Shown here: positions 58,811 through 60,827 of the stretch, piece by piece
Layout: every line of letters begins with the position of its first letter
Position numbering within the stretch: the first letter of the stretch is position 1
Source of the DNA: Actinomycetospora straminea
GTDB taxonomy: Bacteria > Actinomycetota > Actinomycetes > Mycobacteriales > Pseudonocardiaceae
Reading direction: 5' to 3'
Assembly: GCF_028737255.1 (NCBI RefSeq)
Contig: NZ_JAQZAN010000011.1
Span: forward strand, 62,001-126,000
Length of the DNA stretch: 64,000 nucleotides
Notes under the pieces: generated by a model
Seen by the model: only the letters and a program-made list of their open reading frames with translations
What the model was told of the DNA's origin: nothing
Database searches by the model: none
Position numbers and translations under genes: made by a program

Positions 58811-58893
58811 GACGCCCAGTTTACCGAGGGGTCCCCAGTCACTTCCGGCCTGCTCAGGGTGTGCGTCCCGGGGTCGCCGGGCACGTCTCGACC

Positions 58894-59859
58894 ATGACGG
58901 CGACGACCACCCCGGCCACGATGCGACGGATCACCCAGGACGCCCCTGGCGGGCCGGAGGTCCTGCGCGTCGAGGAGGCGCCGGTCCCCGAGCCGATCCC
59001 CACCGAGATTCGCGTGCGGGTGACGGCGGCCGGCGTGAACCCGGTCGACACGAAGGTGCGCGCGGGCGGCGCCGGGCTCGGTGACGACATGACCGCGCCG
59101 CCCTTCACCGTGGGCTGGGACGTCGCCGGCGTGGTCGACGCCGTGGGCATGGGCGTCACGCGCTTCGCCGTCGGCGACCGCGTGTTCGGCATGCCGTGGT
59201 TCCCGCGGCAGGCCGGCGGCTACGGCGAGTACGTGACGGCCCCGTCGCGGCACTTCGCGCCCATCCCCGACGGTGTCGACGACGTCACCGCCGCTGCGCT
59301 CCCGCTCGCCGGCCTCACCGCCTGGCAGATCCTCGTCGACACCGCCGACGTACAGCGCGACCAGCGGGTGCTGATCCACGCCGCGGGCGGCGGGGTCGGG
59401 CACCTCGCGGTGCAGATCGCGAAGACCCGGGGTGCGCACGTCGTCGGCACCGCCTCGGCCGGCAAGCACGCCGACCTCGTCGCCCTCGGTCTGGACGAGG
59501 CGATCGACCACCACACCGAGGAGATCGCCGAGGCCACCCGGGACATCGACGTCGCGGTCGACCTCACCGAGGTCAACGGGCCCTCGTCGCTGGCCGTCCT
59601 GCGCCGCGGTGGGCTCGTGGTGTGCGTGCCGTCGGGCGTCCCCGAGGGGCTGGCCGAGCAGGCGGAGGCCGAGGGCAAGCGGGTCACCGACTTCCTCGTC
59701 GAGCCCGACGGCGTCGCGCTGACGGGCATCGCGCGGCTGATCGCCGAGGACGTGCTGACCGTCCGGATCGCCGGCACCTTCCCGCTCGAGGAGGCCGCCG
59801 CCGCGCACCGCGAGCTCGAGAAGGGCTCGACGGCCGGCAAGCTCGTGCTCACGCTGTGA
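58894..59859 (+). CDS. NADPH:quinone reductase-like medium-chain reductase
   Basis: 321 residues from ATG 58894 (TATTTPATMRRITQDAPGGPEVLRV). GroES-like part: VRVTAAGVNPVDTKVR, FTVGWDVAGVVDAVG, GDRVFGMPWFPR, GGYGEYVTAP. Rossmann part: VLIHAAGGGVGHLAVQIAK and VVGTASAGKHADLV. No zinc ligands. It should reduce quinones or alpha,beta-unsaturated carbonyls with NADPH. It lies divergent from valS and is followed by the unusual peptide locus. Confidence 0.9.
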   Translation: MTATTTPATMRRITQDAPGGPEVLRVEEAPVPEPIPTEIRVRVTAAGVNPVDTKVRAGGAGLGDDMTAPPFTVGWDVAGVVDAVGMGVTRFAVGDRVFGMPWFPRQAGGYGEYVTAPSRHFAPIPDGVDDVTAAALPLAGLTAWQILVDTADVQRDQRVLIHAAGGGVGHLAVQIAKTRGAHVVGTASAGKHADLVALGLDEAIDHHTEEIAEATRDIDVAVDLTEVNGPSSLAVLRRGGLVVCVPSGVPEGLAEQAEAEGKRVTDFLVEPDGVALTGIARLIAEDVLTVRIAGTFPLEEAAAAHRELEKGSTAGKLVLTL

Positions 59860-59896
59860 CAGCGCCGCGCATTCGCGGCAACAGTTCTCGGGAAAT

Positions 59897-59927
59897 CGTG
59901 GACATGACCGTCCACGCCCTCTAATGT
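59897..59927 (+). promoter_or_regulatory. Sigma-70-type promoter with operator dyad
   Basis: -35 TGGACA (59899-59904), 17-bp spacer, -10 TAATGT (59922-59927), one of the best housekeeping-type promoters in the window. A perfect 7-bp inverted repeat CGTGGAC/GTCCACG (59897-59903, 59910-59916) covers the -35, so a regulator probably acts here. Predicted start about 59934. Confidence 0.6.
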
Positions 59928-59957
59928 CGTTCTCGACACGGAGAGGAGGTGGAGACG

Positions 59958-60032
59958 ATGTTGACGACAGACACCGACTATCGGGTGACGCACATCGTCG
60001 CCACCGGCCCCCTGTCGTTCGTGGACTGCTGA
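59958..60032 (+). CDS. Candidate small peptide gene (24 residues)
   Basis: ATG 59958 lies 7 bp after the consensus SD GGAGGT (59945-59950) and about 24 nt after a predicted transcription start. The product begins MLTTDTDYR, ends GPLSFVDC, and has a single Cys as its last residue. No signal peptide, membrane helix or known RiPP motif, and no modifying enzyme is adjacent. A hairpin starts 4 nt after the stop. Either a leader peptide governing the downstream gene, or a free small protein or RiPP precursor. Translation is strongly suggested by the SD; function is unknown. Confidence 0.55.
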   Translation: MLTTDTDYRVTHIVATGPLSFVDC

Positions 60033-60035
60033 GCC

Positions 60036-60062
60036 CCGGCGCTCCGCACTCTCCCGCGCCGG
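60036..60062 (+). terminator. Hairpin after the small ORF
   Basis: CCGGCGC (60036-60042) pairs with GCGCCGG (60056-60062), 7 bp, extendable by GCC/GGC beyond a bulge. It begins 4 nt after the small ORF stop, where an attenuator stem would sit. No T-run. Confidence 0.5.
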
Positions 60063-60101
60063 CTGGCTCGGCGACGTCTTCGCTGCTCAGGTCGCGTGCC
60101 G

Positions 60102-60136
60102 GCCGTCGGCTGGTCCCGTCGGGGACCGCCGACGGC
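60102..60136 (+). terminator. Strong 15-bp hairpin
   Basis: GCCGTCGGC/GCCGACGGC (9 bp), a single bulged T, GGTCCC/GGGACC (6 bp), loop GTCG. One of the most stable hairpins in the window, between the small ORF and the gene at 60257. Terminator or attenuator; no T-run. Confidence 0.6.
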
Positions 60137-60149
60137 GCGGACGGACGCG

Positions 60150-60223
60150 CATTCCGCGCCATTCCTCGGCCATTCCGTGCCATTCCGTGCCGTTCTGGGC
60201 CGTTCTGCAGCGCCATTCTCGGC
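60150..60223 (+). repeat. Seven helically phased C(A/G)TTC repeats
   Basis: Units start at 60150, 60160, 60171, 60181, 60191, 60201 and 60214. Two are exactly CATTCCGTGC; others vary (CATTCCGCGC, CATTCCTCGGC, CGTTCTGGGC, CGTTCTGCAG, CATTCTCGGC). Spacing of 10-11 bp places all but the last on one face of the helix. It resembles a cooperative protein-binding array or iteron, 34 bp upstream of the gene at 60257. Confidence 0.65.
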
Positions 60224-60256
60224 GCTCGATCCTGCGCGTCCGAGAGGGGGCACGTC

Positions 60257-60748
60257 ATGAGCTGGATCTTCCGCAAGATGTCCTTCCCGATGCTGCCCTC
60301 GTTCCGGGGCCGCGCCGAGCAGCGCCGTCACGAGGCCATCGCGCACGCGTTCGAGACCGACCTGCGCCGCGAGTTCCGGGCTGCCTGCGAGTACCTCGGG
60401 GTGCGCAGGAAGACCCACGTCCCGGCCGGGGTCACGATCACCTGCCCGCGGATCGGTTTCGTGCAGATGGGCCCGCCGACGGTGTTCTCCGTCGAGCTCA
60501 TGGCGGGCATGGTCCCGGCGGACCTGGTCCCGCCGGCCCAGCGGGTCGCGCAGGCCATCGGCGGTCGCGGCGTGCGGTTCGAGCCGTTCGCCGGGCGCTG
60601 GCTGCGCGTGGTGGTGCTGGACGACCCGGACCCGCCCGCGGACCACGACGATCCTCATCGCCCTGGTCCGCGGCGGGTCCGGCATCGGCCGCTCGTCGTG
60701 CCGTGTCCCGCACCGCCGCCGTTCACTCGTTCCGGTGAGAGGCGCTAA
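60257..60748 (+). CDS. Short protein resembling the N-terminus of conjugative FtsK/SpoIIIE-like translocases
   Basis: 163 residues; ATG 60257 after GAGAGGGGG. Residues 1-50 are basic and helical (RGRAEQRRHEAIAHAFETDLRREF). Residues 55-120, with TITCPRIGFVQMGPP, TVFSVELMAGMVPADLVPPAQRVAQAIGG and LRVVVLDDPDPP, follow the pattern of the region before the motor domain in FtsK-like proteins of actinobacterial integrative and conjugative elements. The motor (Walker A/B) is absent and the tail after about residue 125 is Pro/Arg/His-rich. It may be a stand-alone regulator or a remnant. No integrase, att site or rep gene was seen. Tentative. Confidence 0.55.
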   Translation: MSWIFRKMSFPMLPSFRGRAEQRRHEAIAHAFETDLRREFRAACEYLGVRRKTHVPAGVTITCPRIGFVQMGPPTVFSVELMAGMVPADLVPPAQRVAQAIGGRGVRFEPFAGRWLRVVVLDDPDPPADHDDPHRPGPRRVRHRPLVVPCPAPPPFTRSGERR

Positions 60749-60827
60749 CGGATCGCGAGCCCCGACGACATGTGCGGCAGGTCCGCCGCTCGGTGGATAC
60801 CACGCATCTCGTCGGGGGATCGCCACC

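Follow-up and report, generated by a model that had tools for sequence, protein, structure and literature searches.

A putative translated upstream open reading frame in the leader of an orphan FtsK-alpha-like gene of Actinomycetospora straminea

In the Mbox-pe20 leader of Mycobacterium tuberculosis, translational control of an upstream open reading frame (uORF) by occlusion of its Shine-Dalgarno (SD) sequence is combined with Rho-dependent termination, and transcripts end mainly upstream of the uORF; the authors take this position as speaking against dependence on uORF translation (PMC12810186, parts of the text). In the ilvB1 attenuator of the same species, a translated uORF in the leader decides downstream transcription, with a regulatory codon run and a Rho-independent terminator (PMC13236596, parts of the text). 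The leader peptides of the cys operons in Actinobacteria are short frames with Cys near the stop and with runs of Cys, and the actinobacterial and mycobacterial cys leaders showed a pyrimidine-rich stretch ahead of the gene and, in the portions of the source available, no conserved terminator hairpin (PMC1262725).

The DNA analysed here (the window, 64,000 nt) is part of the 6.29-Mb draft genome of A. straminea (56 contigs), and the orphan gene and the RNA features of its leader lie on its forward strand. It carried a leader with a 24-codon frame ahead of a gene for an orphan FtsK-alpha-like protein, and the same locus was found in two genomes of the same genus, G016 (L005, L109) and G015 (L013, L108); the leader was interpreted from the comparison of these three sequences. 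Overall, the locus has the appearance of a gene switch whose general type is known, and the best explanation, with a probability of roughly 36%, is a translated uORF leader that would control the orphan gene. Opening of a 5'-terminal hairpin would let ribosomes enter the small frame and trail RNA polymerase to the end of the frame, where they would hinder the use of a downstream repeat stretch by Rho, and transcription would reach the gene. With the hairpin shut, the leader would be free of ribosomes and the transcript would be lost. The peptide itself would be a by-product, although slow decoding at its last Cys codon or at the stop might contribute to the control. The first-pass annotation had already proposed that translation of the peptide controls the RNA; a translated frame in the leader of the gene was supported by codon phase, an unbroken frame with a fixed stop and a kept block, and the control is what we infer.

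Similar to the Mbox-uORF-pe20 leader, also from the Actinomycetota, an RNA structure predicted from the sequence would gate the SD of the small frame, and Rho-dependent termination in the leader may have a counterpart here in a rut-like stretch. In contrast, no Mbox or other Rfam match was found in the window at the gathering score (the best low-threshold hit had an E value of 0.27 and was on the minus strand), the downstream gene is a different one, and the small frame is not conserved in sequence, whereas the uORF of Mbox-pe20 is described as highly conserved (PMC12810186, parts of the text). The window leader may work like Mbox-pe20 but is no member of it. With the cys-operon leaders it shares a short frame that has Cys close to its stop, the lack of a conserved terminator hairpin and the pyrimidine-rich stretch ahead of the gene, and it differs from them in its single Cys, in a downstream gene that is not a sulfur gene and in the SD-covering hairpin (PMC1262725, in the portions available). 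By the tests, it is not a member of the cys-operon leaders either. A translated uORF that would decide downstream transcription is shared with ilvB1, but neither a regulatory codon run nor a Rho-independent terminator was found here (PMC13236596, parts of the text). A search of the literature, judged on titles and abstract openings, returned no account of this leader, which does not prove its absence in print.

The promoter was placed at 59899-59927, with TGGACA at 59899-59904, a 17-nt spacer and TAATGT at 59922-59927. The block from the promoter to the SD of the small frame was kept in G015 and G016, and the promoter call is based on this retention and not on the sigma-70 consensus scan, which found no promoter sites here. 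The elements had been described in the first-pass annotation as a good sigma-70 promoter; their place and spacing held, but "good" did not, as the scan was empty and the -10 element matched TATAAT at 3 of 6 positions. The perfect 7-bp dyad reported over the promoter was present as 7+7 bp over the -35 element (59897-59916, without strand) and could be an operator. It was perfect in two of the three species, where the arms are 6 and 7 bases apart, absent in G016, and occurred once in the genome of the window.

The SD of the small frame (GGAGAGGAGG, 59940-59949) was invariant in all three species and was followed after 5 or 8 nt by an ATG, at 59958 in the window. The 24-codon frame, MLTTDTDYRVTHIVATGPLSFVDC plus stop (59958-60032), ended in FVDC; the consensus SD, the ATG and this frame were thus all found as first annotated. 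Across the three species, the promoter block, ACACGGAGAGGAGG, a frame of 24-25 codons (24, 24 or 25), its C-TGC-TGA end and a cluster of RTTCY repeats were kept. The frame was unbroken in every species, with one 3-nt indel and the same stop. Of the 70 post-start codons of the three species together, 63 had G or C at the third position (47.3 expected; none of 5000 frame-open dinucleotide shuffles as high), which is one test across related species and not three independent ones; the window frame alone gave 21 of 23 (P 0.006). This suggests that the small frame is translated.

The amino-acid sequence, on the other hand, drifts. In all three pairs dN exceeded dS about twofold, and the differences by codon position (10/10/6, 15/16/12 and 13/14/10) showed that positions 1 and 2 vary more than position 3. 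Only a few residues, at the ends of the peptide, were common to the species; the terminal ones were VDC, AVC and TTC, so that the last Cys codon was kept in 3 of 3 and the Asp was not. A random synonymous pattern in close relatives, which the first-pass annotation had named as refuting its proposal, was seen for the peptide sequence (dN above dS); the frame and the leader did not show it. Our reading is that the frame would be translated yet free in its amino-acid sequence, the main rival being an idle or fossil frame. Since the Cys codon sits inside the heptamer CTGCTGA (60026-60032), invariant in 3 of 3, an effect of the codon and an effect of the RNA are inseparable. A free small protein that evolves fast, its sequence being diversifying or tolerant and its output limited by the hairpin, would also account for the codon phase, the strong SD and dN above dS, but is improbable: shared residues were limited to a few ends, the peptide had no Pfam match, and no other copy was found in the 18 genomes of the genus. 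The suggestion of a RiPP precursor, or of a free small protein whose sequence matters, is likewise disfavoured, as dN was above dS in every pair and codon positions 1 and 2 changed most. In agreement with the initial remark that no modification enzyme lies nearby, the four neighbour proteins covered by the scan showed alcohol dehydrogenase (ADH) domains, a DUF4190 hit below the cut-off, an MDMPI domain and no match.

A 5'-terminal hairpin over the SD and start of the small frame (59934-60017), missed in the first reading, was examined by folding, codon shuffles and covariation. In the window, GGTGGAGACGATGT (59948-59961) pairs with ACATCGTCGCCACC (59992-60005) with one mismatch. Folds of a 97-100 nt segment turned the 5' end back onto the frame in all three species, and the bases after the SD varied by species with partners that varied to match. 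In a fixed register, 3 of 10 pairs (A3 columns 19, 20 and 24) were altered on both sides with pairing kept, and the paired share of cells was 76.7%, a level reached by 8 of 500 shuffles; the shuffle value was 64.7%, and sliding the register gave no more than 50%; the lower stem of G016 is kept but shifted by one and was scored as unpaired in this count. The covariation counts were modest, being reached by 26 and 22 of 500 shuffles. The duplex between the SD/start arm and the frame was better than in codon-shuffled copies (0 of 2000 as good in the window, P 0.001 in G016, P 0.10 in G015). Closure of the ribosome binding site, taken from -24 to +60, exceeded 32 of 33 control starts in the window and in G016 and 22 of 33 in G015.

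Other observations speak against the hairpin. The total energy of the hairpin was mildly low against codon shuffles (P 0.046, 0.12 and 0.25) and total folding of the start region was ordinary, with 7, 23 and 26 of 33 controls as strong or stronger. Sliding 84-nt z-scores were -3.8, about -2.5 and -1.7, and other stretches, including the promoter dyad, were equally low. RNAalifold on the whole leader gave an unfavourable covariation term of +1.91. In addition, the 132-nt fold of G016 and the full-leader folds of G016 and G015 paired the SD elsewhere, so that the hairpin was retained in the window only. A hairpin with the potential to cover the SD and start of the small frame is proposed, with weak support from G015, the third species. 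An ordinary 5' UTR is almost as probable as the uORF leader; it would consist of a promoter, a stabilising 5' hairpin and a spacer for constitutive expression, with an incidental or fossil frame and no switch, and the leader would appear busy since GC-rich sequence folds readily. The frame dN/dS of about 2 in all three pairs, the modest covariation and energies and the dispensability of the module, missing at seven joined junctions (see below), fit it, but codon phase in all three species, a perfect SD before an unbroken frame with a fixed end, and the kept repeat cluster do not.

Downstream of the frame, the hairpin announced 4 nt past the stop was recovered with arms CCGGCGC/GCGCCGG at 60036-60042 and 60056-60062 (stem 60036-60062). 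Folds of all three species showed post-stop stems, but those of the relatives differed and did not align. The second annotated hairpin exists as an inverted repeat at 60095-60143 (24+24 nt, 75% complementary); it lies mostly inside an alignment gap of both relatives and is largely specific to this genome. A terminator scan of 59700-60400 found no terminator-like site. A classical translational or transcriptional attenuator, in which a ribosome at the terminal Cys codon picks between alternative downstream stems, would profit from the Cys codon kept in 3 of 3 and from the post-stop stems in all folds. It is nevertheless rather improbable given a single Cys codon, the empty terminator scan, a large hairpin that is not kept, post-stop stems that do not align and a downstream FtsK-alpha-like gene with no tie to cysteine. 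The control by a terminal Asp-Cys pair first put forward is not supported, as the Asp is not kept, the large hairpin is mostly gone in the relatives and the terminator scan was empty.

Between these stems, GCTGCTCAGG was located at 60082-60091, of which GCTGCTCA was invariant in 3 of 3. Words like GCTGCTCAGG with one mismatch occurred 15 times in the window compared to 6.7 in shuffles (1 of 100 shuffles had as many); besides the leader copy, one lies at 58849-58858 before the dehydrogenase gene.

Seven RTTCY repeats, starting at 60151, 60161, 60172, 60182, 60192, 60202 and 60215, form a stretch at 60151-60219 with C in excess over G. Seven were found against 0.92 expected (none of 1000 shuffles had as many), and this was the 80-nt stretch richest in them when the plus strand was scanned in 5-nt steps. 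The excess over chance was seen in all three species (0 of 1000, P 0.028 and P 0.005), with varying numbers (7, 3 and 4). The repeats stand 10-13 apart in the window, G016 has spacings of 12 and 22, G015 has 72, 12 and 28, and a steady 11-13 was not seen; the seven phased 10-bp repeats of the first description were thus beyond chance in number but not kept in spacing. In each leader, the repeats fell within the 78 nt with the highest C/G value (1.68, 1.78 and 2.40), values chosen as the best per leader, such as occur in 2.6-7.3%, 1.3-2.6% and at most 0.1% of 78-nt windows over 64 kb. The criterion of RhoTermPredict is a 78-nt stretch in which C outnumbers G and the cytosines are spaced (PMC6407284, parts of the text); the stretch showed the C-over-G part, and spaced YC patterns were common everywhere (41 starts per kb). 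A function at the DNA level, in which proteins bind the dyad and the repeats with their phasing of roughly 10 bp and the RNA features are by-products, would explain the dyad over the -35 element in two of three species and the near-helical spacing in the window, but appears improbable, as the relatives do not keep the spacing, G016 lacks the dyad and this genome has it only once.

The SD of the downstream gene (GAGAGGGGG, 60242-60250) and its ATG at 60257 followed the repeats as annotated. Contrary to what would favour the uORF reading, its region was no freer with the small frame occupied (paired 0.87 to 0.90, 0.62 to 0.61 and 0.66 to 0.80). Pairing of the small frame with this SD was also considered and rejected, because the signal of the window (P 0.03) was not kept in the relatives (P 0.88 and 0.27).

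The downstream gene (60257-60748) encodes a protein of 163 aa (MSWIFR...), characterized by sequence relatives, dN/dS and a structure model. Neither Pfam nor NCBIfam gave a match for it; one of the two orthologs was likewise without a match, and the other had a weak DUF2685 match below the cut-off. The protein was up to 48% identical to the N-terminal part of longer FtsK/SpoIIIE and TraB-type translocases of the same genome and differs from them in that the ATPase part was not found. Three such longer proteins of the same genome (L029, L035 and L040) were 43-48% identical over their N-terminal part; L029 carried an FtsK_SpoIIIE domain, a weak TraB match and a WhiB gene just upstream. An AlphaFold model from three sequences had a mean pLDDT of 73.9 and a pTM of 0.57. 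In the Foldseek search with this model the first 12 matches were FtsK or TcpA motors with E values of 0.04-0.24, none at 0.001 or below, and the matched part is presumably the FtsK alpha domain. No convincing relative was found among solved structures searched by sequence. The three orthologs had a dN/dS of 0.34-0.45, which indicates that the protein is under constraint. In 150 genomes of the family, a draw that excludes G015 and G016, relatives were found in 13, with a best match outside the own genome of 1.4e-24; plasmids and phages gave no match. The orphan appears to be a fragment domesticated from a conjugative element.

At 28 other loci with FtsK/TraB-type relatives, no small frame was found upstream. 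Five further short stand-alone FtsK-alpha-like relatives are present in the genus, and by eye no separate small frame ended ahead of these genes. An N-terminal extension of the downstream gene, whose frame in the window is free of stops from 59924 onwards, was rejected, because the relatives are open only 144 and 147 nt upstream; GC by phase of the leader (0.68/0.77/0.76, 0.64/0.69/0.69 and 0.63/0.64/0.75) also speaks against it.

A more specific form of the uORF reading would be a lineage-specific RNA switch, with a frame kept only for being translated, whose amino acids drift while the codons co-evolve with their own SD into a self-closing hairpin. The frame would gate where it is itself initiated and, with ribosomes covering a Rho site built from repeats, would also gate the conjugation-derived orphan FtsK-alpha protein. 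This form is unlikely on present evidence. If the uORF reading is right, the locus would be a compact test case, with swappable hairpin arms, of how ribosomes moving along a frame of free sequence determine the access of Rho in a high-GC bacterium. In addition, a stand-alone FtsK-alpha-like protein would have its own control and be selected where present, with other species of the genus doing without it.

The module (59860-60827) was identified by its downstream gene and promoter-SD block in 3 of 18 searched Actinomycetospora genomes, the window genome (G000), G015 and G016. The downstream gene was full-length in these three (E values of 1.2e-86 or lower), while the next match in the genus was a paralog (1.4e-35). 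Searches of the 18 genomes for further copies of the block, by pattern and by RNA model, returned only the same three; the next RNA-model match had an E value of 0.03, and the next best three loci given (L113-L115) resembled ordinary coding sequence or gene starts. Outside the genus, the search of genome_contigs gave two loci, both being the G015 and G016 records, viral_contigs gave no relatives, and the leader DNA had no match in plasmids.

In the three carriers, the module lay between a dehydrogenase-like and a DUF4190-like gene, and these two genes were directly joined in seven genomes (G001, G003, G004, G007, G008, G012 and G013). The remaining 8 of 18, including G011 (59% complete), were without a clear DUF4190-like ortholog by which the junction could be judged. 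In the dehydrogenase tree (9 genomes, G001 left out), G016 paired with G008 and G015 with G012; in the DUF4190 tree (7 genomes, two short proteins left out), G000 paired with G007. The presence label needed three changes on each tree, of which well-supported branches forced 3 and 2. As all 500 label shuffles needed as few changes, the label is scattered. A clear remnant of the module was found at the joined junction of G013 alone, matching the 3' end of the gene (0 of 300 shuffles against G016), and a weak one in G012 at the matching end (P 0.08 against G015); G001, G003, G004 and G007 had none. A promoter remnant seen by eye in G008 was rejected because its best matches fall elsewhere in the module. 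Given the remnant in G013, repeated loss of the module is the simplest account, and gains into the same site are a possible alternative. Finally, an inverted pair, CCCCGACGA and TCGTCGGGG, was observed at 60760-60817, just ahead of the DUF4190-like gene; the pair was noticed by eye at genus junctions too and possibly marks another structured leader.
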